From Methanoculleus caldifontis (GTDB lineage: Archaea > Halobacteriota > Methanomicrobia > Methanomicrobiales > Methanoculleaceae): a stretch of 64,000 nucleotides of DNA. The notes beneath the pieces are model-generated. The model did not search any database. It was not told where the DNA came from and saw only the letters and a list, made by a program, of their open reading frames with translations. The position numbers and the translations under genes are program-made. The stretch lies in the NCBI RefSeq assembly GCF_032842345.1, contig NZ_WBKO01000001.1, positions 1,116,001 to 1,180,000 of the forward strand, read 5' to 3'. Below, one piece after another: positions 22,122 to 40,133 of the stretch. How positions within the stretch are numbered: the first letter of the stretch is position 1; each line of letters begins with the position of its first letter.

Positions 22122-22594
22122 GGAGAGTAGTTGGCAGGCGTGAGAGAAAAGTCTCCCCACTAGGGCTGGTCCGGTATATAGATGCTCCGAAGGTTGGCGG
22201 CGGGGGTCGGGCACTCGAGGCGCTGCCTGTCCGGGATGGGGGTGCACGGTGGTAGGGCCTTTGAGGGAGAAACGTAACTACAGGGGACCTGGAGCGCCGA
22301 GAGCGTCCGGCGCTCTCCGGTTTGCCCGGAGTAAGGTTTTTATTCTCGTGCATGCATTGGTCCCGGTGATCCGGGAATGGAGTGGAATCCTGACGTATTT
22401 AGAGCGTTTTCCAGTGATGTGGTGCCTTTTAAGGACGCCAGATCCCCGGTCGACCACAAAGGATATATTAAGTGTTCCACAAATATTGTGACATATTCCG
22501 TAATTCGGAGTATAGAGCGTGGTGAACCCGTATTCGACGTCTGTCGAGTACCTCGCGTTCACATTCCCTCATGTCATCACAATGGAGGTATAGT
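22122..22594. other. Promoter and leader region upstream of the S-layer gene
   Basis: A 473-base gap between divergent thyA and the S-layer gene. No coding sequence is supported. The right half is AT-rich compared with its surroundings and holds the TATA box at 22463 and an untranslated leader of roughly 100 bases. Confidence 0.6.
22463..22470 (+). promoter_or_regulatory. TATA box of the S-layer gene
   Basis: ATATATTA, preceded by a purine-rich CACAAAGG that resembles a BRE. Transcription would start near 22495, leaving about a 100-base leader before the ATG at 22595. That is long compared with the leaderless genes around it. Confidence 0.6.
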
Positions 22595-24940
22595 ATGAAG
22601 AGTATGACAAAATTGATGGTCGTCGCCATGCTCCTCGTGGCTGCGCTGGTCGTTGCACCGGTTGCGGCACAGAGGACTGTAGGCAATGGCGATACTATCT
22701 ATGTAGGTGAGGACAACCTCGACCTAAGCGCGCTGTACGCCGGGACTAGTGGACACCTGGTTTACTACAGCAACATCGCATCTGCGACTGCCGGCACTGT
22801 CGGGAGGACAATCTCAGTTACCAACACCTCGGACTTTGATCTGACCGCATCCGCAGTTGGATCCTCGACCGGGACCTGGTATGCTTTCAATGCTCCCCCG
22901 TTCACCGACCCGTCAGCGGCTGTCGGGACCGTTCTCGCCGAGACCCCCTCGACGAACCTTCGCGTTCTCCTGGGAAACACCGGCACCACGTCCGTTGACG
23001 GCCAGAGCGTAACCCGCTCGAGCGCTATCCGGTTCCGGGTTGACCACAACCTTGCAGGCCTTGGCGTCGGCACGGCTGACCCCAACTACAACACGATTGA
23101 GGTTCGGCTGACCACGCCCGGCGGCGGTACGGTCACCCAGTTCGGCAACCCCGCCCAGAGCCTCAGGCTCCAGCTCACCGGTCAGTGGACCGAGACTGCC
23201 CCGATCAACCTGACCGGCGCTACCGCCGGCACGTACACCGCGAGAGGTGTCTGGCCCACTGCAGCCGGCCTCGGCACGGAGTACAACACCAACGCCGTGA
23301 CCTTCCAGGTCTCCTCCGGAGCGGTCGGCATCACCTCGAACAAGGACACTGTTGTTCGTGGCAACGCGTTCACCGTGACCATCACCGGTGAGTCCGAGCA
23401 GGACTACTTCCTGACCCTCCAGAACCCCGGTGCACAGCCCCCGACGTTCCGCGCGAACCAGGTCGGCGTGACCGTTAACACGGCTACCAACGCGACCGTC
23501 AGGACCACGGCAGCCGGCACCCGGTCTGTCGAACTGCTCACCACCACGGCTACCAGAGAAGCAAGCTACACCGTCCGTGTCACCGACCCGCGTGACGCAA
23601 GCAGGTACGACGAGGTCCGCGTGAGGGTCGAGACCGGCTCGGTCACCATCACCGCTTCCGGCACCGGCACCTTCTACGTCGGCGAAGAGATCACGCTCTC
23701 CGGAACCAACACTGACAGCGACACCGTTTACCTCTTCATGACCGGTCCGAACCTCGGCACCCGGGGCGTTAACCTCCTCGGTACCCTGAACCCGGTCGTC
23801 AACGGCACCGCTACCAGCTTCGTTAACGTAGACGTCGAGGCCGACGACACCTGGTCCTACCGGTGGGACACCAGCGGAATCACCAGGTCGCTCGACTCCG
23901 GCGGCTACACTGTCTACGCTGTCTCCGCCCCCAGGGACCGGGACAACCTCGCTAACGTCGAGTACGCCACCCGCACCGTCCAGCTCCGGCCCGGCTTCAT
24001 CACCGCGACCATGAGCAGCGCGACTGTTGCGAAGGGCGACGACGTAACGATCACCGGAACCGCACAGGGCAACCCGTCCAACGTGAACATCTGGGTCTTC
24101 GGCAAGAACTACTACGGCGGCGCTAACGGAGCGTTAGCAGTCCAGACCGTCAGTGTCGAGTCCGACGGCACCTTCGACTACGACATTCTCAACACCGAGA
24201 ACCTCGTTGCCGGACAGTACTTCGTCGTCGTTCAGCACCCGATGGGCGCGAACTTCGAGGTTGCACAGGGTACTCTCGCCGGACAGAGCCCCAACAGCAT
24301 CTACCGTGCTGACGAGACCGGCGCCACGAACGTCTTCGTTGCGAACCTCGTGACCCTCCAGGCCTCTGAGGCAGCAAACGCGCTGATCAACGCCCTTGAG
24401 TCCCCGTTCGTCAACGACGCCTACACCAAGCTCACCTTCTTCCTCGAGGACGCCTGGATCAGGATCAACCCCGTTGGTGACCAGGCTGCAGGCAGCACGT
24501 TCACGATCTCCGGAACCACGAACCTCGCAGCAGGCGAGCAGCTGATTGTCGAAGTGACCTCCGCTGCGTTCCAGCCCGGCACGGCCGGTCAGGCTACCGG
24601 CTTCTCCAGCGATGCCGGCTCCGTGACCATCCAGCAGGGTGAGACCGCGAACACCTGGTCCTTCGAAGTCGACGCGACCGCCTTCAGACCCGACCAGTAC
24701 ATCGTTACTGTCGAGTCCATCGAGGCCGGCACGACCACGACTGGATCCTTCAACGTGATTCAGGGCCAGCCGACCCCGACCCCGACCACTCCGGGCGCAG
24801 TCACCCCGACCGCGACCCCTGGTGAGGTCACCCCGACCGCAACCCCGACCGCAACCCCCACCCAGTCCCCCGGATTCGGAGCACTCGTTGCTCTTGCCGG
24901 CCTTGGTGCAGTTGCGTTCCTGGTCCTGCGCCGGAACTAA
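22595..24940 (+). CDS. S-layer glycoprotein with PGF-CTERM anchor
   Basis: Major cell-surface protein, 781 residues, of the methanomicrobial S-layer type. Residues 1-26 form a signal peptide (ending APVAAQ). The body is beta-rich and Asn/Thr-rich with repeated Ig-like modules and many NxS/T sequons. The C terminus is a Thr/Pro linker (about 725-755), then SPGFGALVALAGLGAVAFLVLRRN. That is a PGF motif with a single helix and Arg tail, the archaeosortase-processed PGF-CTERM signal. The ATG at 22595 is preceded by GGAGG with correct spacing. An earlier ATG at 22571 lacks this. Codon use is strongly biased, as for very highly expressed genes. Confidence 0.9.
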   Translation: MKSMTKLMVVAMLLVAALVVAPVAAQRTVGNGDTIYVGEDNLDLSALYAGTSGHLVYYSNIASATAGTVGRTISVTNTSDFDLTASAVGSSTGTWYAFNAPPFTDPSAAVGTVLAETPSTNLRVLLGNTGTTSVDGQSVTRSSAIRFRVDHNLAGLGVGTADPNYNTIEVRLTTPGGGTVTQFGNPAQSLRLQLTGQWTETAPINLTGATAGTYTARGVWPTAAGLGTEYNTNAVTFQVSSGAVGITSNKDTVVRGNAFTVTITGESEQDYFLTLQNPGAQPPTFRANQVGVTVNTATNATVRTTAAGTRSVELLTTTATREASYTVRVTDPRDASRYDEVRVRVETGSVTITASGTGTFYVGEEITLSGTNTDSDTVYLFMTGPNLGTRGVNLLGTLNPVVNGTATSFVNVDVEADDTWSYRWDTSGITRSLDSGGYTVYAVSAPRDRDNLANVEYATRTVQLRPGFITATMSSATVAKGDDVTITGTAQGNPSNVNIWVFGKNYYGGANGALAVQTVSVESDGTFDYDILNTENLVAGQYFVVVQHPMGANFEVAQGTLAGQSPNSIYRADETGATNVFVANLVTLQASEAANALINALESPFVNDAYTKLTFFLEDAWIRINPVGDQAAGSTFTISGTTNLAAGEQLIVEVTSAAFQPGTAGQATGFSSDAGSVTIQQGETANTWSFEVDATAFRPDQYIVTVESIEAGTTTTGSFNVIQGQPTPTPTTPGAVTPTATPGEVTPTATPTATPTQSPGFGALVALAGLGAVAFLVLRRN

Positions 24941-27047: not shown

Positions 27048-28442
27048 ATGTTAAAGCGTCGTATCATCATAACTCTGATTCTCTTCTGCTGTCTCCTCTG
27101 CTGCACGGCGCAGGCGGTCACCCTGCGGGTCAGCGTGGCCGACGAGAAGACCGGTGGTGCGCTCGCCGATGCCTCAGTATACATCGACGGCACCTATGTG
27201 GGAAGCACCGCATCCGATGGCACGTACTCATACTATCACACCGGGAAGAAAGATCTGCGCGTGAAGGTGGTCCGGACGGGCTACAAGGACTGGGTGGAGT
27301 ATGTCGATGCCGACAGGACCAGCGTCTTTGTCAATATGGTGCGCAAAGATGAGATCCTTACGTTCGAGCTCTACGATGCGGTAACCCTGAAGCCGATCGC
27401 CGGCGCCCTGGTGCGTATCGAGGGTGACGGGGTCTCCTCTTCGGGGACAACCGGTAGCACCGGGAGCACTGAATTCTCCGTGAAGGCCGGTGCGCTCTAC
27501 AACGTCGAAGTCCGCACGTCGGGATACTATGAGTTAACGAAGACCGTGCAGGTGGAGAACAGCAAGAAGGTCGTCCAGTACTGGCTCTTCAGGAGCGATC
27601 TCCTTGCGGTTCAGGTCAAAGACAGCACTACCTCCACTCCCATCGCAGGTGCGGAAGTCTTTATCGACGGTACGCGTGCCGGGACGACCGACGCTGACGG
27701 GAAGCTGCCGCTCAATCTGCAGCGGGAGAAGAGGTACTCCTTCAGGGTCACGGCACCGGACTACCAGACCTATCAGGAGGAGCGTTACCTCGACGCGGAT
27801 GTCGTGCTCCTTCACGTAGGCCTCTCGAAGTCGACATACCCGCTCTCGATAACAGCCACGAACGAGGCGATGAAGTTCATCGAAGGGGCGGAGGTCTACC
27901 TCAACGGAACATTCCAGGGGAAGACCAACCATTACGGTCGATTCGCGCTCTCCGAGGTTCACGCCGGCACGTATGAGTTCCTGGTACGTGCGCCCGGGTA
28001 CGAGGAATGGGCCGGAACGCGCCAGGTCTCTGGAAAAGGGGAGGAGATCGTCGCCGAGCTCAAGTACGATCGGGCAAGCGTGACCATCCGCGCCGAGGGG
28101 GCCGACCGAAGAGCGGTCGCCGGTGCGGTGATCGTCATCGACGGTCAGGTTGCCGGGACGACCGACGGTCTCGGGTGTCTCCGGACGGCGCTTGTGACGG
28201 ATAGGGTCTATGCTGTTGCCGCCGCCCGTGACGGCTACGAAAACCTCTCGGTCGACGTCGAGATCCCGCTCGGTTCGACCGAGTTCACCGTCCCGCTCGT
28301 GATGGAGCAGAGCTTAAACGTATGGATGATCGCGGCAGGTATCGGGGTTGTTGCTGTGGTCCTCGTCGCGGGGGTGCTTGTCCTGCGACGCAGGCAGGCC
28401 GGGCGGGACCAGAGCAAACCGCGGGGCCGTGACGGGCTGTAA
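27048..28442 (+). CDS. Surface protein with five PEGA/CarboxypepD-reg-like repeats
   Basis: A 464-residue exported protein. A signal peptide (1-23) with two CC pairs precedes five beta-sandwich repeats of about 80-85 residues. Each repeat has the same turn motif: ASVYIDGTYVG, ALVRIEGDGV, AEVFIDGTRAG, AEVYLNGTFQG and AVIVIDGQVAG. Each is followed by a TxxDG-type turn and an aromatic segment ending GYxxW/Y. This matches PEGA or carboxypeptidase-regulatory-like modules. The C terminus is a single transmembrane helix (about 427-446) followed by RRRQAGRDQ, so the protein is a type I membrane-anchored surface protein. No enzyme domain is present. Confidence 0.85.
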   Translation: MLKRRIIITLILFCCLLCCTAQAVTLRVSVADEKTGGALADASVYIDGTYVGSTASDGTYSYYHTGKKDLRVKVVRTGYKDWVEYVDADRTSVFVNMVRKDEILTFELYDAVTLKPIAGALVRIEGDGVSSSGTTGSTGSTEFSVKAGALYNVEVRTSGYYELTKTVQVENSKKVVQYWLFRSDLLAVQVKDSTTSTPIAGAEVFIDGTRAGTTDADGKLPLNLQREKRYSFRVTAPDYQTYQEERYLDADVVLLHVGLSKSTYPLSITATNEAMKFIEGAEVYLNGTFQGKTNHYGRFALSEVHAGTYEFLVRAPGYEEWAGTRQVSGKGEEIVAELKYDRASVTIRAEGADRRAVAGAVIVIDGQVAGTTDGLGCLRTALVTDRVYAVAAARDGYENLSVDVEIPLGSTEFTVPLVMEQSLNVWMIAAGIGVVAVVLVAGVLVLRRRQAGRDQSKPRGRDGL

Positions 28443-28715: not shown

Positions 28716-31700
28716 ATGAATCAGTGGATGTATGCGTACCTGGCCATCGGGCTGCTCCTTCTTGCAGCCCCGGCAGGGGCGCTGGTGCCCGATACAATTA
28801 CCATCGAGACGGATTCCGGCTGGGTGACGGCGGGAGGCTCCGATACCGCAACCCTGACGGTGCAGGTCTCGAACAGCGTTTCCGGCAATACCTCGTTTCG
28901 GGGGGTTGCCGTCGATTTTGCAGCAAACAACACGTATGGTAGTATTTCACCCGCTCACGTCGTGACAGATGTTAGCGGAAAAGCGACGGCGGTCTTTACG
29001 CCGGGGACCACCAGCGGGACCGCGGCGATCACGGCGACGGCTGTGCATGGGGATCTGGGAGAGCCCCTGACCGGGAGCGTCGACCAGCAGGTCGACCACG
29101 CCGCTCCCTACCTGGTCAAAAACATCTGGTACTCACCGGAGGTGACGGTCGGGCAGACGACGACGATCGCGGTCCGGGTGGTGGATCGGTACGGAAATCC
29201 GGTGGACAGCAGGCGGGAGGCCTCCCTGAGTACCACGCCTGAGAGCATACGCTTCACGGTGGGTTCGCCGGCCGGGTTCGTGGTCGGTGCGTCCTGCGAG
29301 GATAAGGTCTCGGTTCCGGTGGATGCCGAAGGGAACGCCACGGCAGTCCTCCGGGTCGATACGGCGGCGGGGGAGAACCTTGTCTGGATTCAGCCGCCGG
29401 CGCCGGTCAAGAGCGAGTATATCTCCATACTCAGCGTGGCGGACGGTGTCCCGTTCCGTATCGCCCAGGCCGTCGATCCTGCGAGCGCGTCGGTCCGTGC
29501 CAACGGGGAGGAGATGGTCTCGTTCATCTACACCCTGTACGACGAGCATGACAACCCGGTTGCCGGGCAGGGCCTTCGCGTGGATGCCCTGGTGAGGCGG
29601 GGGGACCGGCCTGAGGAGCTCCAGAGCGCTCTCCTGCACTCCAACTCCCAGGGGCAGGTGATGATCACCTACGGGCCCGAGGACTCCGTCGGGGTTGCGA
29701 CCATCACCGCCACGGCCAAAGAGAACGCGAGCGTGAGCGTCTCGCAGGAAGTCTCGTTCACCAGCACCGAGCCGGTGAACATGCTTCTCTCCGCAAGCCC
29801 CCAGTCGATGCCGAGCCGGGACGTCAAGGCGGACTCGCTCGCGCAACTCCGGGCCAAGGTGATGGACATCAAAGGGAACCCGGTTGCCGGGGAAGAGGTG
29901 ACGTTCGAGATCGTATCGAACACTTCAACACCCTACAACCAGACCCGGGATCAGGCGCTGGAGACGACGTCCGCTACCACCGATGATAACGGATACGCCG
30001 TCGTCGGCTTCTACCCCGGTGCGTTCACGACCGACCGTAAAGCGCCCGGCTGGGATGCCACCGCGACCGGGACGGCGACTGTCCGGGCAACGTGGGGGGA
30101 CGTCACCCGCGATATCGTCCTGACCTGGAAGAACTATCCCTACCTCTCGGTGGAGACGGAGGTCTCCCCTGAGACCGTTGCAGTGAACGAGACGGTCGAC
30201 GTGACGATCCGCCTCCGCGGCGACGGCTGGGCGCTCCAGCCGGACCCGATCGACGTGGTGCTGGTGATCGACCGGTCGGGGAGTATGAGCAAAACGGATG
30301 TGAGCCCGACCAGAATGGCGGCGGCAAAGGCTGCGGCAAGCACGTTCATCGGTAAGATGGATCCCGCCCGGGACCGCGTCGGTCTGGTCTCGTTCTCTTC
30401 CACCACAACGGTAAACAACGCCCTGGGTGACTCGTTTGCAGCGGTGAACGCAAGCCTGAACTCTCTTCAGGCGAATGGCGCCACGCAGTTGCGGCGGGGG
30501 ATCTACGAGGCCATCCTCATGCAGAAGAGTAATCTGGATCGACCAGGCGTTATCAAGGCTGTAGTCGTCATGAGCGACGGCGACTGGAACTACGACGGGA
30601 GCCCGGTGGGGCATGGGATGGGGTATCCCGAAAATTCTTCAAGTGCCTATACCTTCAGTGGCAGTAATTTGGAACCCAACAACTATCGGTATTATGATGG
30701 TCTTGGGGGGTCACTCCAACGAAATTCCGGATCGAATTATTGGAGATGCTATGATGGTGAGTTCACCAATCAGAACATGTCCCGGTTTGCCAGCGACAAC
30801 GGGGTGAAACTCTATACGATCACGTTCGCCTATAGTCCCGGCCCGACGGTGAACCAGACGATGCGCATACTTGCGACTTCAACCGGCGGATTCTACGAGC
30901 ATGCAACGAGCAGCGGGGAGCTTACCAATATTTATGAGCGGATCGCCGGCGAACTCAAGACCGAGGCCGGCGTCGACACCCGGATGGACATTTCTTTTGA
31001 TAACGTTGAAGTGAATAGCGCCCCGGTGCCCGGCAACCAGGTCTTTGACTACGTCTATGCACAGCCCGACTCGACCCGGATCTACAGTTACTTCAGCCAC
31101 AACGGTTCAAATATCACCGACCCCTATGCCCGCGACGACCGGCAGTCCTGGGCGGGGGCGAGCCCGTGCCTGCACTTCAACATCGGCACCGTCCACCTCC
31201 ACCAGGTCTGGGAGACGACCTTCCGCCTCAACGTGACAAAGCCGGGGAACATCAACGTCTTCGGTTCGGGCTCGACCATCAGCTTCAACGGTGGCGAAGA
31301 GACGCTGCCTCTCCCCGACACGTTCATCACGGCCGTCGAAGGGTTGATGAACCTGGGCATGACGTCCCGTACCATCAGCGTGGAGCTCGACCAGCCCCCC
31401 CTCCCTGCCGGGCAGGATGCGTTCTCCGACTCGGTTCCCCTCTCCTGGAACATCACCTACAACGGCACCTGCGATATCGATGAGGCGCTGGCCTACTCGG
31501 GCGACGGCGGACTTTCGTGGACGGTCTTCTTGATGAAGACCATCCCCCATGACGAGATGGGGGGTAACACCTGGAAGAAGGACTCGACCTCGCTTGACGC
31601 CAGCAACCTTCTGCCGGGGGACTACCTGATCCGCGTGGTCGCCTCGGCCCTCGATACCCCTGAGGCGATGGATACGATCAGCACACCGGTTCGTATCGGG

Positions 31701-31733
31701 GATACCTCGGGCGCGTTCATCAGGATCGGATAA
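28716..31733 (+). CDS. Secreted Ig-like/von Willebrand A protein, paralogue 1
   Basis: A 1005-residue exported protein. The signal peptide (1-23, ending AGALVPD) is followed by three or more invasin-like (Big_1-type) Ig modules over about 25-490. These repeats show the GxATAVFTPG...GTAxITATA pattern and DxxGNPV turns. A von Willebrand A domain starts near 513 with an intact MIDAS: DRSGS (D519), Thr590 in GATQLRRG and D621 in MSDGDW. A Ser/Tyr/Asn-rich insert (about 630-690) follows. The C-terminal part (about 740-1005) is beta-rich. No transmembrane anchor is seen. It is the first of three tandem paralogues. Role unknown; adhesion or surface assembly is inference. Confidence 0.87.
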   Translation: MNQWMYAYLAIGLLLLAAPAGALVPDTITIETDSGWVTAGGSDTATLTVQVSNSVSGNTSFRGVAVDFAANNTYGSISPAHVVTDVSGKATAVFTPGTTSGTAAITATAVHGDLGEPLTGSVDQQVDHAAPYLVKNIWYSPEVTVGQTTTIAVRVVDRYGNPVDSRREASLSTTPESIRFTVGSPAGFVVGASCEDKVSVPVDAEGNATAVLRVDTAAGENLVWIQPPAPVKSEYISILSVADGVPFRIAQAVDPASASVRANGEEMVSFIYTLYDEHDNPVAGQGLRVDALVRRGDRPEELQSALLHSNSQGQVMITYGPEDSVGVATITATAKENASVSVSQEVSFTSTEPVNMLLSASPQSMPSRDVKADSLAQLRAKVMDIKGNPVAGEEVTFEIVSNTSTPYNQTRDQALETTSATTDDNGYAVVGFYPGAFTTDRKAPGWDATATGTATVRATWGDVTRDIVLTWKNYPYLSVETEVSPETVAVNETVDVTIRLRGDGWALQPDPIDVVLVIDRSGSMSKTDVSPTRMAAAKAAASTFIGKMDPARDRVGLVSFSSTTTVNNALGDSFAAVNASLNSLQANGATQLRRGIYEAILMQKSNLDRPGVIKAVVVMSDGDWNYDGSPVGHGMGYPENSSSAYTFSGSNLEPNNYRYYDGLGGSLQRNSGSNYWRCYDGEFTNQNMSRFASDNGVKLYTITFAYSPGPTVNQTMRILATSTGGFYEHATSSGELTNIYERIAGELKTEAGVDTRMDISFDNVEVNSAPVPGNQVFDYVYAQPDSTRIYSYFSHNGSNITDPYARDDRQSWAGASPCLHFNIGTVHLHQVWETTFRLNVTKPGNINVFGSGSTISFNGGEETLPLPDTFITAVEGLMNLGMTSRTISVELDQPPLPAGQDAFSDSVPLSWNITYNGTCDIDEALAYSGDGGLSWTVFLMKTIPHDEMGGNTWKKDSTSLDASNLLPGDYLIRVVASALDTPEAMDTISTPVRIGDTSGAFIRIG

Positions 31734-32172
31734 CCTCCCCTTTTTCGTACCCTCTGCATCATGAGTTTGCGTGATCTGCGGCCGGTCCCATGCTTTCGGA
31801 CACATCCGGCCAATAATGGCCTGAAATGTCTCTCAGCCGGGTAAATCGGATTGAAGCCGCCTCTGCCTCTCCGGAAAGACGCTCACCGTGCAGGTGAGAG
31901 GCCGGAGAATGCCGGCTAGCACTGTCCTATGACAATCTGTTCCCTGACGGCATTTTCTGAATCCCCGGAACGATCTATTCGCGTCTGGAAACGAACTTCT
32001 TCGGATACCCTCACTTTCGGGGGAGTTCATTTATTATTATATCTTAAAATGGTGAAATCCTTCTATTAGGTCAAAAATTTTGCACAAATCGAGAAAAAAG
32101 ATCAAATGGCGATCTAATTAATTGGATATTATTATATATATCTTGGTGCAAATGACCTCCTTGCGAAGGTCC
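31734..32172. other. AT-rich gap between surface paralogues 1 and 2
   Basis: About 440 bases without a supported gene. The right half (about 32025-32150) is strongly AT-rich in a GC-rich genome and contains the TATA box for paralogue 2 and a second TATA-like element (TTATTATTATATCTT, 32031-32045). Confidence 0.55.
32129..32143 (+). promoter_or_regulatory. TATA box of surface paralogue 2
   Basis: ATTATTATATATATC. A transcription start about 25 bases downstream falls near 32160-32168. That would exclude the upstream start codons at 32122 and 32152 and supports the ATG at 32173. Confidence 0.6.
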
Positions 32173-35100
32173 ATGAGAAGCTGGAAGTGTGCATACATAG
32201 TCATCGCCGGGCTCCTCCTCCTGGTGGCCCCGGCCGGCGCCCTGGTGCCCGATACGGTTGAGATATCCACGAGCAGCGAGTGGCTGACGGCCGGGAGCGG
32301 CGAGACCGCGACCGTCACCGTCCTGGTCACCAACGGCAGTACCCCCATACCTGGAGCGGCCGTCTCGTTTGCCAGCAATATGGGGAGCATCAGTCCCGCC
32401 GTCATCACGACCGACGGCGCCGGCAGGGCGACGGCGGTCTTCTCCCCCGCAACCACCAGCGGGACTGTGGCGATCACGGCGACGGTCTCGCACGAGGGGC
32501 TCGCCAGCCCCCTGACCCGGAGCATCGACCAGCGGATCGACCACGCCGCCCCGGCCGCGGTCGCCGGCCTCTGGTACGAACCGGTGGTGACGGTCGGGCA
32601 GACGACGACGATCGCGGTCCGGATGGCGGACCGCTACGGGAACACGGTGGATAACCGGAAGACGGCCGAGACCGTGCAGTTCGCCGTAGGCTCCCCCTCC
32701 GGGAGCGCGACGTTCGTCGGCGGCACGGACCGGGTCACGGCGTCGGTGGATGCCGCCGGAAACGCCACCGTGACGCTCCGCGTGGATACGCTGCCGGGCG
32801 AGAACATCGTCCAGGTCAGCCTGCCCGAACCGCTGCCCGGCCGCTACCTGACGATCTCCGGCGCGGGCAACGGGGAGCCCTGCGCGATCGAGGTCGACGT
32901 CCGGCCCGGGGGCGACCCGCCTGTCGCCACCGTCGACGGGGTGAGCAGGTTCGTCCTCACCTACACGCTCCTCGACGGCTACGGGAACCCTTCCTCCGGG
33001 CGAGATGTCGCGATAACCACGGACGCAAGCGGCGATGGGAAGACGGTGCTCACGACGAACGCCTACGGGCAGGTGCAGGTCAGTTACGGGCCGCGGCTGA
33101 CGACCGGCGGCGTCGTCGTCAAGGCGACCGCCGTCGAGAACGCCTCGGTCACCTGCTCTCAGGCTCTTATGTTCGTCAGCAACGACCCGGTGAACCTCGT
33201 CCTCTCCACCTGTCCCGAGACGATGCCGAGCCGCGACGTGCCCGGCTCCGGCCCGGCCGTCATCCGGGCGAAGGTCGTCGACCGGTATGGCAACCCGGTC
33301 GCGGGCGAGACGGTCTCGTTCTCGATACGGAACGCTTTCGTGGGCGACTTCAACCAGACCGCGCCGCCGTCGCTCTCGGCGGTGAGCGCCGTCACCAACA
33401 CCTACGGCATCGCGTCCGTCGAGTTCCTTCCGGGTGAGTTCACGACCGAGTACCAGGCTCCCGGCTACAGCCCGGCTGCGAGCGGCACCTGCGAGGTCGT
33501 CGCCACGTGGCGCGATATCGACCGGCCGGTCGCCCTCACGTGGATGAACTACCCATACCTCTCCGCTGAGACGGACGTCAACCCGGAGGCCGTCACGGTA
33601 AACGACACCGTCGACGTGACCATCCGTCTGAAGGGCGACGGCTGGGCGATGAAGCCGACCCCGATCGACGTGATCCTCTGCATCGACCGGGCCGAGACGA
33701 TGATCAGCGATTACCCCGATCACATGGTCACGGTCATGGGAGCCGCCCCCGTGCTCATCGAGCAGCTGATTCCCGGGTGGGACCGGATCGGACTGCTGTC
33801 GTTCGGCTATAGCGGCACCGCGTCTGTCGACCTGGCCAAGAACAACAAAGTATGCACGATCTCAAACTCGAGGATCCCCGACATCGGGGTGGACCAGGAC
33901 AAGAGCGACGACCGCGACTACATCGTTCACTATCCCGGCACCGGCAACCACTGGCGGCACTACCCGGACCACGCCGTCCTGGACGTCCCGCTGCCGAAAG
34001 ACAGTTCTCCTGCGGCAAACAACTTCGGCGACGTGCGGGCCAGCATCAGCACCCTCGTACCGAGCGGCGGGAATCCGGTACGTAAGGCGCTGTACGAGGG
34101 AGTCACCGAGATGAAGGAGCACGGCAGGCCGGGCGCCGTGAGGGCGCTGGTCCTTCTCGTCGACGGCGACTACGACTGGTACGGGGATCCCCTCGCCCGT
34201 TCGGGGGCCTACCTGGACACGAAAGACCCCGAGCAGTTCGGGCAGCGGACCAACAACTGGTACCCCTTCGGCCTTTCCGGCGGAGAAGAGAACATGGCCG
34301 TGTATGCCGCAAACAACGACGTCCGGATCTACACCATCACCTTCTCCTCCGCCGTCTCGACGGACTGCAACGAGACCATGCGAATCATCGCCGAGACTTC
34401 GGGCGGGAAGCATTATATCGCGCGGACGTCGTCCGACCTCATCGCGGTCTACGACCAGATCGCCGACGACCTCAAGACCGAGGCGGGCGTCAACACCTTC
34501 GTCGATGTCACCTTCGAGAACGTGGAGGTGGACAGCGCCCCGGTATCCGGCGACGAGGTCTTTGACTATGTCTACGAGGAAGGGGTTTCCACGCTGATCC
34601 GGAGTTATAACCGCACGGCCGTCTTCACCCCCGCATATACCCGGGACGACACCGCCGCATGGGCCGCGAACCGGAGACTGCACTTCGATGTCGGGACCAT
34701 CCGGCTCAACCAGACCTGGGAGGCGACCTTCAGGCTCAAAGTCCTTGCCGAGGGCACGATCGGCCTCTTCGGGGATGGAGCGGCCATCACCTTCAACGAC
34801 CACGACCGGGTCGTGCTCCCCCGCGTCTACATCACGGCCTACGCCGAGGAGAACACGACGCTGGATACCCGGTCGCTCAGTGTCTCCGACCTCAACTGCC
34901 TCTCCCCGGCCACAGAGTTCCTCCCCCTCACCTGGAACCTGAACTACACCGGGACATCGGAGGCCGTGCAGGAGGTCTCCTGTTCCGGCGACGGCGGATA
35001 CACGTGGACCCGGCTTGCTGCCCTGACTTCGCCGCCCGGTGCAAGGGCGATGGAGATCTCCCTCGACGTTCGCGACTTCCTGCCAGGCGAGTACAGCGTC

Positions 35101-35199
35101 CGGGTCTATGCCACGGCGGCGGATGCGCCGGATGCCTGGCAGACCTGCAGGCAGATCCTGATTGGAGACCGGCAGAAAGATTACATCCAGCTCAGGTGA
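32173..35199 (+). CDS. Secreted Ig-like/von Willebrand A protein, paralogue 2 (degenerate MIDAS)
   Basis: A 1008-residue paralogue with the same layout: signal peptide (APAGALVPD), Ig-like modules to about 480, a vWA-like domain from about 498, and a beta-rich C terminus. The MIDAS has decayed: DxSxS reads DRAET (D505, then A507 and T509), and the Thr position reads N634 in SGGNPVRKAL. Only D664 in LVDGDYDW remains besides D505. The domain also has an extra stretch (about 555-620, HYPGTGNHWRHYPDHA). ATG 32173 aligns with the start of paralogue 1 and fits the TATA box, so it is preferred to 32122. It probably no longer binds metal the usual way (inference). Confidence 0.87.
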   Translation: MRSWKCAYIVIAGLLLLVAPAGALVPDTVEISTSSEWLTAGSGETATVTVLVTNGSTPIPGAAVSFASNMGSISPAVITTDGAGRATAVFSPATTSGTVAITATVSHEGLASPLTRSIDQRIDHAAPAAVAGLWYEPVVTVGQTTTIAVRMADRYGNTVDNRKTAETVQFAVGSPSGSATFVGGTDRVTASVDAAGNATVTLRVDTLPGENIVQVSLPEPLPGRYLTISGAGNGEPCAIEVDVRPGGDPPVATVDGVSRFVLTYTLLDGYGNPSSGRDVAITTDASGDGKTVLTTNAYGQVQVSYGPRLTTGGVVVKATAVENASVTCSQALMFVSNDPVNLVLSTCPETMPSRDVPGSGPAVIRAKVVDRYGNPVAGETVSFSIRNAFVGDFNQTAPPSLSAVSAVTNTYGIASVEFLPGEFTTEYQAPGYSPAASGTCEVVATWRDIDRPVALTWMNYPYLSAETDVNPEAVTVNDTVDVTIRLKGDGWAMKPTPIDVILCIDRAETMISDYPDHMVTVMGAAPVLIEQLIPGWDRIGLLSFGYSGTASVDLAKNNKVCTISNSRIPDIGVDQDKSDDRDYIVHYPGTGNHWRHYPDHAVLDVPLPKDSSPAANNFGDVRASISTLVPSGGNPVRKALYEGVTEMKEHGRPGAVRALVLLVDGDYDWYGDPLARSGAYLDTKDPEQFGQRTNNWYPFGLSGGEENMAVYAANNDVRIYTITFSSAVSTDCNETMRIIAETSGGKHYIARTSSDLIAVYDQIADDLKTEAGVNTFVDVTFENVEVDSAPVSGDEVFDYVYEEGVSTLIRSYNRTAVFTPAYTRDDTAAWAANRRLHFDVGTIRLNQTWEATFRLKVLAEGTIGLFGDGAAITFNDHDRVVLPRVYITAYAEENTTLDTRSLSVSDLNCLSPATEFLPLTWNLNYTGTSEAVQEVSCSGDGGYTWTRLAALTSPPGARAMEISLDVRDFLPGEYSVRVYATAADAPDAWQTCRQILIGDRQKDYIQLR

Positions 35200-35615: not shown

Positions 35616-38573
35616 ATGAATTTTCAGAAAGTAATCATCCTCATGATCCTGCTTGGCCTGATCGTTCCTGCGGTGAGCGCGGGCGATCCAGGGCAGATCG
35701 TCCTCTCGAGCGATACTGCCTGGCTGGTGGCGAACGGCGCCGATTCGGCAGGAATAACTGTCCGGGTGTTCGATGGGGGCGGGGCGCCGCTCGCGAACTG
35801 CACGGTGGCGCTCTCGGTCGACCCGGCCTTCGGTCGTCTTACGCCCGCGACCGTCACCACCGGTACCTCCGGGGCAGCCGTCGCCACGTTCATCGCCAAC
35901 AAGACGAGCGGCACCGCCGTGATCACCGCCCGGGCCGGAGGGGCGACCGGGGCGCTTGAACAGAAGATCGACCATGACCTGCCTTCCCGGATTGTATATC
36001 TCGACTACGACTATGAGGTGACGGCAGGCGATACCACCACCATCACCGTGGGGCTGGCCGACCGGCACGGCAACCCGGTCGACGGCCGTCGGGCCGCCGA
36101 GACGGTACGTTTCAGCGTCGATTCTGTCGCCGATGATGCTGTCTTTGCCGGCGACGACGGGACGACGTTGCGCGAACTCGAATGGACGGTCAATGCAACG
36201 GGATTTGTCCATGCCGATCTCAGGACCGACCGCACCATCGGCGAGAACATCGTCCGGATGAGCACCTCCTCCGGCGGCATCGACCGCTACATCTCCATCC
36301 ACGGGCTGGCCACCGGCCTTCCGGCCGGGATCGATCTCACGGTCAGCCCGGACGCCGATCCGGTTCCTTACCAGCCTGCCGACGGCGTGAGCACCTTCAC
36401 CCTGGCCTGCAGGCTCTCCGATGCCTGGGGTAACCCGGCGGCAGGCCGCGACCTCCGGGTCTTCACAACGCTCGCGGATGAAGAGGTGGTCCTGACGACG
36501 AACAGCACGGGCGTCGCCTGCCTCACCTACGGTCCGAAGGACAGCACCGGCAGGCTCACCGTCACTGCGACGGCCGTGGACAATGCGAGCGTGACCGCGT
36601 CGCAGACGATCGAGTTCACCCATACCAGTCCCGTTGAGATGCTCCTCTCGGCAAGCCCGCAGTCGATGCCGAGCCGGGATGTCAATCCCGGTTCTATCTC
36701 GGAACTCAGGGCCAGGGTGGTGGACATCAAGGGAAACCCGGTCGCGGGGGAGAGGGTGACGTTCGCCATCGATATCGATTCGATCGATATCGACGGATCG
36801 ACCCCGGTCGGGGCTCCCTGCCTTGAGAGGGAGGGGCAGGTCGTGGCAACAGCCATGACCGGTGAGGACGGGTACGCTGTTGCCAGGTTCAGCCCCGGGT
36901 CGTTTGCGCGGCCGATGGCGGGAGAGCAGGCCGCTGCGAAGGGCACAGTGACCGTCCGGGCGACATGGGGGGATGTCAGCCGGGATATTGCCCTGACCTG
37001 GATGAACTACCCCTACCTCTCCGTGGAGACGGAGGTCTCCTCCGGGAGGGTTGCGGTGAATGAGACGGTCGACGTCACGGTCCGCCTCCGGGGCGACGGC
37101 TGGGCGCTCCAGCCGAGACCGATCGACGTGGTGCTGGTGATTGACCGATCGGGGAGTATGTCGGAGAGGGATGTGGGCCAGATGAGGATGAAGGCTGCAC
37201 AGACCGCAGCAAAGACGTTCATCGGCCAGATGAGTCCGGACCGGGACCGTGTTGGCCTTGTCTCGTTCTCCTCCTCCACAAGGGTGGATAACAGGCTGGG
37301 CGATCCGTTCGGAGAGGTAACCGCAAACCTGGACGACCTCAGCGCAAGCGGTGCCACACAGTTGCGGCGGGGGATCTATGAGGCCATCCTCATGCAGACG
37401 GAGAACCGGGATCGACCCGAGGCCGTCAAAGCTGTGGTCGTCATGACCGATGGCGACTGGAACTACGACGGGAGCCCGCTCGGGCACGGGACAGGGTATC
37501 CTGCGTATTCAAGTCCGACATTCAGCGGCAGTAATTTAGAGCCCGATAAGTACCGATATTACGATGGTCTTGGGGGTACTCTCAAGAAGAACTTCTGGGA
37601 GAGTTATTGGACCTGCCACGATGGTGAGTTTACCCACCAGAATATGTCCCGGTTTGCCAGCGACAACGGGGTCAAACTCTATATGATCACGTTTGCCTAT
37701 AGGCCCGGCCAGACGGTGACCGAAACGATGCACGTGCTTGCATCCTCGACCGATGGGTTCTATGAGCATGCTCAGAGCGGCAGCCAGCTCACTGATATCT
37801 ATGAGCGCATCGCAGGCGAGCTCAAGACCGAGGCCGGCGTCAACACCCGGGTGGACCTCGACTTCAGCACGATCCGGGTCAACGGTGAAGACCGGGAAGG
37901 GGGAGGCGTGTTTGCCTATATCCCTGACGACGAGGTCTCGACTGCCATCCGGAGCTGGGTTGACAATGTGACGGGGCGCTATGAGATCATCTCCCTGACC
38001 GTCGTCAACCAAACCGATGACTGGAACGACGACAACGCTCTGGAGTTCGATGTCGGCACGGTCCGTCTCGGCCAGACCTGGGAGGCGACGTATCGCCTCC
38101 GGATGCTCGCTGACGGCAACATCAACATCTTCGGCCCGAATTCGGCTATCATCTTCAACGACGGTGCGGCCAAACTTGGCCTCCCCGACACCTTCATCAC
38201 CGCCGTGCCGGGCCTCACCGACACCGGTCTGAGTTCCACGACGCTCACGCTCACAAACCCACGTTACACCTGCGCGGAGCCGGTGCTGGAGTTCCTTACC
38301 GCCGCCTGGGACCTTACATATACCGGGTCAGGAACGGTCACCGGGACCGTGGACTACTCAAATGACGGCGGCCTCTCCTGGATAGGATTCTATCGCCCGA
38401 TAGCAGGGAGCGGCGTGACCGGGGGCGTCGCCTCCCTTGATGTCGGGAACCTCCCGCCGGGTGAGTACCGGGTCCGGGTTCGCGCCTCTGCGGAGGATGC
38501 GCCTGAATCCTGGCTGCTCTTCCCACCAATCCGGGTCGGAGAGCCGCAGGCGGCATATATCCGGATTGTATAA
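35616..38573 (+). CDS. Secreted Ig-like/von Willebrand A protein, paralogue 3
   Basis: A 985-residue paralogue. The signal peptide (1-21, VPAVSAG) precedes Ig-like modules to about 480. The vWA domain has an intact MIDAS: DRSGS starting at D510, Thr in GATQLRRG and Asp in MTDGDW. Its vWA region and the SPQSMPSRDV segment are nearly the same as in paralogue 1 at both protein and DNA level, while the N-terminal modules and the C-terminal third differ more. The C terminus ends AAYIRIV without an anchor, like paralogue 1 (AFIRIG). Attachment to the surface must be through another protein or sugar (inference). Role unknown. Confidence 0.87.
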   Translation: MNFQKVIILMILLGLIVPAVSAGDPGQIVLSSDTAWLVANGADSAGITVRVFDGGGAPLANCTVALSVDPAFGRLTPATVTTGTSGAAVATFIANKTSGTAVITARAGGATGALEQKIDHDLPSRIVYLDYDYEVTAGDTTTITVGLADRHGNPVDGRRAAETVRFSVDSVADDAVFAGDDGTTLRELEWTVNATGFVHADLRTDRTIGENIVRMSTSSGGIDRYISIHGLATGLPAGIDLTVSPDADPVPYQPADGVSTFTLACRLSDAWGNPAAGRDLRVFTTLADEEVVLTTNSTGVACLTYGPKDSTGRLTVTATAVDNASVTASQTIEFTHTSPVEMLLSASPQSMPSRDVNPGSISELRARVVDIKGNPVAGERVTFAIDIDSIDIDGSTPVGAPCLEREGQVVATAMTGEDGYAVARFSPGSFARPMAGEQAAAKGTVTVRATWGDVSRDIALTWMNYPYLSVETEVSSGRVAVNETVDVTVRLRGDGWALQPRPIDVVLVIDRSGSMSERDVGQMRMKAAQTAAKTFIGQMSPDRDRVGLVSFSSSTRVDNRLGDPFGEVTANLDDLSASGATQLRRGIYEAILMQTENRDRPEAVKAVVVMTDGDWNYDGSPLGHGTGYPAYSSPTFSGSNLEPDKYRYYDGLGGTLKKNFWESYWTCHDGEFTHQNMSRFASDNGVKLYMITFAYRPGQTVTETMHVLASSTDGFYEHAQSGSQLTDIYERIAGELKTEAGVNTRVDLDFSTIRVNGEDREGGGVFAYIPDDEVSTAIRSWVDNVTGRYEIISLTVVNQTDDWNDDNALEFDVGTVRLGQTWEATYRLRMLADGNINIFGPNSAIIFNDGAAKLGLPDTFITAVPGLTDTGLSSTTLTLTNPRYTCAEPVLEFLTAAWDLTYTGSGTVTGTVDYSNDGGLSWIGFYRPIAGSGVTGGVASLDVGNLPPGEYRVRVRASAEDAPESWLLFPPIRVGEPQAAYIRIV

Positions 38574-38615: not shown

Positions 38616-38687
38616 CGGACCCAGCGGGAATTGAACCCGCGTCCTTGGGTTCGAAGCCCAAAAGGATGTCCTCTACCCCATGGGTCC
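38616..38687 (-). tRNA. tRNA-Arg (anticodon UCG)
   Basis: On the minus strand, a 72-base tRNA with acceptor GGACCCA/TGGGTCC, discriminator G, D arm GGGTAGAGGACATCC, anticodon stem TTGGG/CCCAA with loop CTTCGAA (anticodon UCG, codon CGA) and T arm GCGGG-TTCAATT-CCCGC. No intron is seen. Confidence 0.95.
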
Positions 38688-38742
38688 CCTCATCAATTTC
38701 TATCATAAGTTATTAAGCGTTTTTGTGCCCTTACTCTATACA

Positions 38743-39168
38743 ATGATCCTTTCGTCCAGCGAAATCGCTCGCCGGCTCCATGACGGCGATCTCGTCATCG
38801 ATCCGTACAACGGCGCGTCCCAGCAGCCTGCCTCCTACGACCTCCGGGTGGCCGAAGAGATGACGCTCCCGCGCGGCGTCTGTACCCTCGTCCCCTCGAT
38901 CGAGCGGGTGGAACTCCCGCAAGACCTCGCGGCAACTCTCCGGTGCCGCTCCTCGCTTGCCCGCCGGGGCGTCCTCCTCGGCGGAGGGTTCGTAGACCCG
39001 GGGTTCCGCGGCCAGCTGACGCTCTGCCTGACAAACACCGGTTCTGAGGAGATCTCGCTTGCGGCGGGAGACCGGGTCGTCCAGATGATCCTGCAGGAAG
39101 TGTTGAACGGGGGACGACTCTATGAGGGCCGGTACCAGGACAGCCGGGGCGCGGTGCATTCGAGATGA
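38743..39168 (+). CDS. dut: dUTPase of the dCTP-deaminase fold (archaeal Dut)
   Basis: Trimeric dUTPase/dCTP deaminase-superfamily protein, 141 residues. The family motifs are ASYDLRVAE, the LRCRSSLARRGVLLG nucleotide-binding motif, FVDPGFRGQLTLCLTN and AGDRVVQMIL. In dCTP deaminases the residue after TL is a catalytic Glu; here it is Cys (TLC), and the protein is shorter than Dcd. That favours the archaeal dUTPase branch, which removes pyrophosphate from dUTP. The start is ATG 38743, because MILSSSEIARRL matches the family and the longer frame runs back into the tRNA. It overlaps the next gene by 4 bases. Confidence 0.82.
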   Translation: MILSSSEIARRLHDGDLVIDPYNGASQQPASYDLRVAEEMTLPRGVCTLVPSIERVELPQDLAATLRCRSSLARRGVLLGGGFVDPGFRGQLTLCLTNTGSEEISLAAGDRVVQMILQEVLNGGRLYEGRYQDSRGAVHSR

Positions 39169-40133
39169 CTGCGCCGATGCGTTCCGAACGGAAATATCTC
39201 GAGATCCTCCGGATCCTCACGGAGTCGCACGAACCCCTGGGTGCCAAGCGGCTGAGCGAGAAGATGGGCGAGCGGGGTTTCGTCTTGAGCGACCGCGCCG
39301 TCCAGTACTACCTCCAGTACCTCGACGAGATGGGGTTCACGGAGAAGATCGGGAACCGGGGCCGGATCCTCACCGAGGCGGGCGTCGCCGAGAGCGAGCG
39401 GGCACTGGTCGACGAGCGGCTCGGCTTCATCATCTCGAAGCTTGAACTGCTTGCGTTCCGAAGCACATTCGACCCGGAGACCGGATCGGGAAACGTCGCC
39501 TACAACCTCACCTTCGTGCGGGAGGAGGACCTCTCCGGTGTCACGGCGGCCTTCGACGAGGTGGCGAGAGCGGGCTACGGCCTCCTGAACACCTACCGGA
39601 TCGTTGACGCCGATCCCCGCATACCCGACGGTCATGTCGGGATCATGACGGCCTGCAGTGTCACCCTGGACGGTGTTCTCCAGAAGGCGGGTATCCCGGC
39701 GAGGCTCGAGTATGCCGGCAGGATCGCCATCGACCAGAGCGGCTCTGCGGGGTTCCTCGATCTCATCGGCTACCGGGGAACGTCGGTCGACCCGCTCCAC
39801 CTCTTCATATCCGCGGGGCTCACCTCGATCAGCCGGCTGGCGACGACCGGGTCTGGTGTTGCACTTGCAAATGTCCGTGCGGTGCCTGCGGCCGCGCAGG
39901 ACCGGGTGGCAGAGATTATCGCCCGGATGACGGAGAGCGGGTTCGGGTTTCCGGCCGGGGGAGGCATCGGGGAGTTCAATCTCCCGAAACATCCCTACCG
40001 GCTCCCGGTCGTCACGTTCAGCGGCATGAACATGGTGGGGAACGCCATGGAGAGAGGCTACCCCATCCGAACCGAGATCGGTGCCGGTACGGTGCCGTTC
40101 GATAAAATAGCGGACGCTACCGGATCCAGGTGA
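39165..40133 (+). CDS. NrpR-like regulator (winged helix plus one DUF128 domain)
   Basis: A 322-residue transcription regulator of the NrpR type. Residues 1-70 form a winged helix (LEILRILTESHEPLGAKRLSEKM ... AVQYYLQYLDEMGF). Residues 80-320 form one NrpR/DUF128 effector domain (GYGLLNTYRIVDAD, VTLDGVLQKAGIPARLEYAG, LDLIGYRGTSVDPLHLFI). NrpR represses nitrogen-assimilation genes in methanogens and is relieved by 2-oxoglutarate (known for the family). Some species have two DUF128 domains, here there is one. It overlaps dut by 4 bases upstream and runs 17 bases into the convergent FtsZ-like gene. Confidence 0.88.
   Translation: MTAPMRSERKYLEILRILTESHEPLGAKRLSEKMGERGFVLSDRAVQYYLQYLDEMGFTEKIGNRGRILTEAGVAESERALVDERLGFIISKLELLAFRSTFDPETGSGNVAYNLTFVREEDLSGVTAAFDEVARAGYGLLNTYRIVDADPRIPDGHVGIMTACSVTLDGVLQKAGIPARLEYAGRIAIDQSGSAGFLDLIGYRGTSVDPLHLFISAGLTSISRLATTGSGVALANVRAVPAAAQDRVAEIIARMTESGFGFPAGGGIGEFNLPKHPYRLPVVTFSGMNMVGNAMERGYPIRTEIGAGTVPFDKIADATGSR

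Follow-up and report, generated by a model that had tools for sequence, protein, structure and literature searches.

Three tandem genes, all on the forward strand, encode vWA-domain proteins (P1, P2, and P3) in the window, which is the whole stretch of 64,000 nucleotides analyzed here, from a Methanoculleus genome of 2.6 Mb (99.9% complete). The proteins share the order of a signal peptide-like N-terminus (recognized by eye), Ig-like domains (Big_1, Invasin_D3), the vWA domain, and C-terminal β domains. The domain layout of P2 is that of P1, and the signal peptide and Ig scaffold of P3 differ from those of both. The genes and the features around them are as follows.

27048–28442, forward strand: upstream neighbor; PEGA/CarboxypepD_reg-like repeats, plus a membrane helix at the C-terminus (by eye); its adjacency to the array is conserved
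28716–31733, forward strand: slot 1 gene, P1 (1005 amino acids); signal peptide, Ig-like beads (Big_1/Invasin_D3), vWA domain with an intact MIDAS (DRSGS/GAT/SDGD), and C-terminal β domains, with the final peptide FIRIG
32130–32141, forward strand: TATA-like box of the slot 2 gene, found by eye from a reading of the sequence only
32173–35199, forward strand: slot 2 gene, P2 (1008 amino acids from ATG 32173); vWA domain without a canonical MIDAS, final peptide YIQLR
35616–38573, forward strand: slot 3 gene, P3 (985 amino acids); vWA domain with an intact MIDAS, final peptide YIRIV
31716–31730 (P1), 35182–35196 (P2), and 38556–38570 (P3): conserved C-terminal peptides
38680–40133, forward strand: downstream neighbors, dcd (dCTP deaminase-like) and an NrpR-type regulator; their adjacency to the array is conserved

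ATG 32173 is favored over TTG 32122 as the start of P2, since the TATA-like box lies immediately upstream of it. Comparable AT boxes are seen by eye at ~28675 and ~35575, and together with the slot 2 box they suggest a separate putative promoter for each gene. The locus is syntenic across Methanoculleus, in the order of AMP phosphorylase, PEGA protein, array, dcd, and nrpR.

Nearly all family members end in a short conserved peptide (for example YIRIG, YIQLR, or YIKIE) with the stop codon directly after it. Neither a membrane helix nor a PGF-CTERM signal is evident at the family C-termini, and P1, P2, and P3 have no match to the PGF-CTERM signal. A DUF3821 protein upstream of the array (window positions 22571–24940) bears this signal, and therefore PGF-CTERM proteins exist in the host genome. 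A genome-wide pattern search of the host gave no clear excess of the YIRI-type end elsewhere. The C-terminal YIRI-type peptide may be the last strand, serving anchoring or assembly.

The vWA domain of P2 is distinguished from those of its neighbors by the following parts.

33664–34482, forward strand: P2 vWA domain, residues 498–770 (alignment and AlphaFold2 model)
33685–33699, forward strand: MIDAS loop 1, DRAET instead of DxSxS, residues 505–509 as numbered from ATG 32173
33829–34023, forward strand: long insert between loops 1 and 2, absent from P1 and P3 (alignment)
34066–34086, forward strand: MIDAS loop 2, GGNPVRK, with Asn634 where P1 and P3 have the MIDAS Thr (alignment)
34159–34179, forward strand: MIDAS loop 3, VDGDYDW, with Asp664 kept (alignment)

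An alignment of the three vWA domains agrees with the initial annotation on the residues themselves. P1 retains DRSGS (519), the Thr of GAT (588–590), and the Asp of SDGDWN, P3 retains DRSGS (510), GAT (579–581), and TDGDWN, and P2 reads DRAET, Asn634, and Asp664 at the corresponding positions. The motif is not shifted, and the loops align unambiguously, each being flanked by invariant residues. The five MIDAS positions of P2 are D, A, T, N, and D, so that the set of DxSxS, Thr, and Asp is incomplete. Two Ser residues and the Thr had been described as lost. All three are indeed substituted, but only S507A removes an oxygen donor completely; Thr509, at the position of the second Ser, retains the hydroxyl group, Asn634, at that of the MIDAS Thr, has an amide oxygen atom, and both Asp residues are retained. 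The fold-forming residues were said to be kept together with the length. In the AlphaFold2 models of P1 and P2 the loops lie in matching strands and helices, and the Rossmann-type order of strands and helices is preserved, whereas the length of P2 differs from that of P1 and P3: ~62 residues are inserted ahead of loop 2, and ~24 are missing beyond loop 3. The first half of the insert is modeled with low confidence. The long insert is typical of the whole P2 subfamily, including MIDAS-intact members, and PSGGNP is invariant across five P2-type genes.

Compared with the MIDAS-bearing vWA/I domains (PF00092, and VWA_2, PF13519), P1 and P3 are well above the cut-offs with 60–67 bits and are the only PF00092 matches in the host genome, whereas P2 has noncanonical ligands and the long insert and falls below (18.9 vs 23.8 bits). 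The P2 vWA domain is on a different family branch from those of P1 and P3 and is not their recent sister copy. A search against NCBIfam gave no family above the cut-off. A Foldseek search of the PDB returned only bead-like multidomain proteins with TM scores of ~0.1, values that refer to the whole chain and are uninformative on the vWA domain.

We surveyed 79 loci in 68 Methanomicrobiales genomes, including the array of the window, and obtained 132 family members, 99 of which have the intact set DSSTD at the five positions. The slot 2 genes, found in eight genomes, are all MIDAS-less: DATND in four (P2 counted), DGRND in one, and DGGAQ in three. The four close orthologues of P2 are all noncanonical (DATND in G026, G028, and G032, and DGRND in G015), and the search for orthologues of the middle gene with a normal DxSxS, which would have spoken against the initial annotation, found none. 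The other noncanonical types are DGDAQ or DGGAQ (11 rows), SATxD/STTDD, NGxVD, and a few more, and 40 extra loci gave nine additional DGDAQ rows. Because related losses are found in the P2 orthologues and in the wider family, the loss of the MIDAS is old and common to the lineage and is not a quirk of a single genome. A single origin of the loss in Methanomicrobiales as a whole is no more than possible: most of the degenerate rows cluster in the tree (SH-aLRT 89), but this is a grouping in which long branches meet and which contains one intact long-branch row.

The DGxAQ lineage, characterized by DRGED, SAPLR, and LMQN, comprises 20 copies and is present in several taxonomic families (f1, f2, and f3). 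Its loops (DRGE-D/G-ML, SAPLR, and LMQN) are nearly invariant, with mean entropies of 0.30, 0.59, and 0.66 vs 1.27 for the domain, suggesting a re-purposed site. At L122, L133, L134, and L136, in another family of Methanomicrobiales, two or three MIDAS-less genes of the DGDAQ type stand next to each other. In the slot 2 gene of G029 (L073, 8155–10824 and beyond), a Methanoculleus genome in a single contig, a TAG at codon 891 truncates the C-terminal domains.

Four of the five ligand positions of P2 still carry an oxygen donor, and both Asp residues are invariant in the slot 2 DATND/DGRND group. D505, T509, N634, and D664, with the addition of E508, could accordingly form an altered site that still holds a metal with changed affinity or metal choice. 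This explanation appears unlikely, since in the G015 gene the second Ser is replaced by Arg (DRGAR) and loop 3 reads GDSKY, and the DGGAQ heads of slot 2 carry Gln in place of the loop 3 Asp and Ala in place of the Thr. As for P2 itself, whose site keeps four oxygen-bearing side chains, weak metal binding is possible.

The ω values (dN/dS) of the vWA domains are 0.22–0.31 for the P2 orthologues and 0.14–0.25 for the intact P1 and P3 groups, and those of the Ig part are 0.26–0.48 over the groups compared. The P2 vWA domain is under purifying selection similar to that on the intact copies, which argues against decay. Small loop changes are continuing, as in DRGAR of G015, and these, with the TAG codon in G029, might be taken as signs that slot 2 is a redundant copy drifting toward loss of function. 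Such neutral decay is highly improbable given the ω values, the full-length frames of seven of the eight slot 2 genes, and the near invariance of the DGxAQ loops over several taxonomic families. P2 as a pseudogene or decaying gene is likewise contradicted by ω and by the open frames in seven of eight. The loss is beyond chance, as all orthologues have related losses and are under purifying selection. The loss in all slot 2 genes found, together with the selection on them, supports the proposal that the middle protein is something other than a canonical metal-dependent binder.

The positions of the heads relative to their scaffolds indicate how the array has diversified. Comparison along the genes reveals pairs that are orthologous in the Ig and C-terminal parts, whereas their vWA domains are only remote relatives. 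The clearest swap is in slot 1 of G026 and G032, which share 92% identity in the Ig part (dS 0.18) and 87% in the C-terminal part (dS 0.15) but only 45% in the vWA domain, where dS is saturated. The two genes (L033, 5109–8213, and L036, 6568–9678) have different vWA types, both intact, as a recent head replacement. P2 and the slot 2 gene of G009 have residue identities of 67% (Ig), 74% (C-terminal part), and 29% (vWA), and the dS values between P2 and its G015 orthologue are 0.41, 0.59, and 2.58, respectively. In the control pair, P2 and G026, dS is 0.52 in the vWA domain and 0.50 and 0.73 in the flanks. The breakpoints estimated in most pairs are around residues 494–560 and 758–835. The following stretch precedes the vWA domain.

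33523–33684, forward strand: conserved stretch directly 5′ of the P2 vWA domain (NYPYLS..GDGWA..PIDV)

This stretch, with 75–87% nucleotide identity in most cross-slot pairs (minimum ~61%), ranks with the best-conserved parts of the protein in every pair and is therefore a plausible site of homologous recombination.

A scaffold tree was constructed from the Ig parts of 61 proteins of the taxonomic family, in which the eight slot 2 genes form one clade (SH-aLRT 100). The vWA data are incompatible with such a clade (AU p = 7e-8 and 5e-5 in two tests), and the Ig data in turn reject the clade of the four DATND heads seen in the vWA domain (p = 5e-8). The DGGAQ heads group in the vWA domain with DGDAQ heads of other scaffolds and genera. 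For 12 cassette types, 29 cassette changes are counted on the scaffold tree. Conflict between head and scaffold trees and a step in synonymous divergence, the two marks of cassette exchange, are both observed. The array is a single locus whose heads have been swapped, and a simple alternation of active and inactive copies, as first proposed, does not describe it.

Binding domains can undergo diversifying selection, and the vWA domain might merely be fast-evolving in some lineages, with no exchange at all. However, synonymous sites jump too, from a dS of 0.18 to saturation within one gene pair, so that fast protein evolution does not explain the vWA divergence. The orthologous vWA domain of P2 and G026 evolves more slowly than its flanks, and identical cassette types recur on different scaffolds. 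An account without exchange is thus barely credible.

Slots differ in the heads that they carry. The intact cassette types 4, 6, and 8 occur on slot 1 and slot 3 scaffolds alike, and slot 2 has types 11 and 1 only, both MIDAS-less and from phylogenetically distinct sources. The link between slot 2 and MIDAS-less heads is suggestive but unproven, because it comes from two, at most three, independent head sources. The bias may simply mean that exchange is commoner between similar cassettes.

The initial annotation regarded the middle protein as a structural or competing partner of two active copies. In such a role, a MIDAS-less protein would pair or compete with its intact neighbors, for example by supplying their MIDAS with an acidic residue. 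Slot 2 does lie between slots 1 and 3 in G000, G009, and G029, an intact copy adjoins the MIDAS-less one in most Methanoculleus arrays, and the Gly of DxSGS is frequently exchanged for Glu or Asp (DRAET, DRADT, and DRGED). However, both family members of G120 (one contig, 99% complete) are MIDAS-less, with no intact copy beside them, and only MIDAS-less members are found in G173, G055, G028, G132, and G066. Most of these five are draft assemblies, where repeats may be collapsed. In addition, slot 2 of G015 (DRGAR) lacks the acidic residue in question. As a general role the partnership is not supported, and we consider it quite unlikely as the explanation of slot 2, though a local partnership within Methanoculleus is possible. 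The single family gene of G028 is a slot 2 gene, and its 5′ end and upstream region resemble those of the slot 1 gene in the close relative G026 (L034, 9600–10365, vs L033, 4709–5478). Deletion of slot 1 of G028 by recombination between the 5′ ends of slots 1 and 2 is possible, as is assembly collapse.

We consider it reasonably probable that the three genes belong to a slot array of secreted Ig-vWA proteins whose heads are exchanged by recombination and in which slot 2 holds a metal-independent binding or structural head. The domain content (signal peptide, Big_1/Invasin_D3, and vWA) points to surface display and adhesion, and the genes would be slots of one chromosomal array most likely encoding cell-surface adhesins. 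Surface rods would carry a vWA head that contacts the surface of a partner. Slots 1 and 3 draw their heads from a common, MIDAS-bearing pool, and these heads would use metal. The tree conflict and the dS values show that heads have been exchanged between otherwise orthologous scaffolds; homologous recombination, probably via the conserved stretch that precedes the vWA domain, would be the route. The heads of slot 2 are MIDAS-less and come from two or more lineages. Since the vWA fold is kept under purifying selection, the slot 2 head is most likely functional, and it may bind or shape the rod without metal through altered top loops or another face. We put forward more tentatively that this is an archaeal adhesin array with recombining heads in which one scaffold is selected for MIDAS-less heads, and that DRGED/SAPLR/LMQN forms a new top site of the vWA domain with no metal or a different one.

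If this array works as proposed, H2-consuming methanogens in intimate contact with syntrophic bacteria have modular, recombining surface heads, one slot of which is metal-independent, and there is a concrete handle on how partners are recognized and how flocs form in anaerobic digesters. The 20 copies of the conserved MIDAS replacement are material for testing whether vWA binding requires metal.

An operon of vWA proteins in the same genus, in ‘Ca. M. ammoniitolerans’, is upregulated when cultures are set in motion, and adhesion has been discussed for it (PMC12008871). Its genes include mer, mtd, and a CetZ gene, and it serves as context only, because its neighbors differ from those of the present locus (PEGA and dcd/nrpR). 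In the literature searched, which covers few subscription papers, we found no published description of the family or of the head exchange. The ingredients, namely MIDAS-less vWA domains, Ig-bead adhesins, and exchange of binding domains, are each known, and their combination was not met in that literature.

The family profiles align with BatB (3ibs), Mfa5 (6to1), and a cell-wall surface anchor protein (3tw0). Adhesins of the invasin/intimin type similarly have a rod of Ig-like beads with a distal head. Unlike them, the present proteins are archaeal and secreted and combine a vWA head with a YIRI-type C-terminus, and the domain search matched only Ig-like and vWA domains, with no N-terminal β-barrel anchor of the invasin/intimin type. 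Bacterial adhesins with variable heads are also known. Replacement of the I-domain in TRAP is reported to have been tested experimentally (PMC7351488), and vWA/I domains are exchangeable heads there as well; here the exchange is natural and occurs among the slots of an array in archaea. A MIDAS is present in about 46% of vWA-family domains, and its loss is common (PMC6509490). In contrast to MIDAS-less vWA domains in general, the loss here goes with one particular scaffold slot that has intact homologues next to it, and the conserved replacement motif DRGED/SAPLR/LMQN characterizes one lineage. Compared with the known exchange systems, the present array is distinguished by one slot that is found only with MIDAS-less heads.
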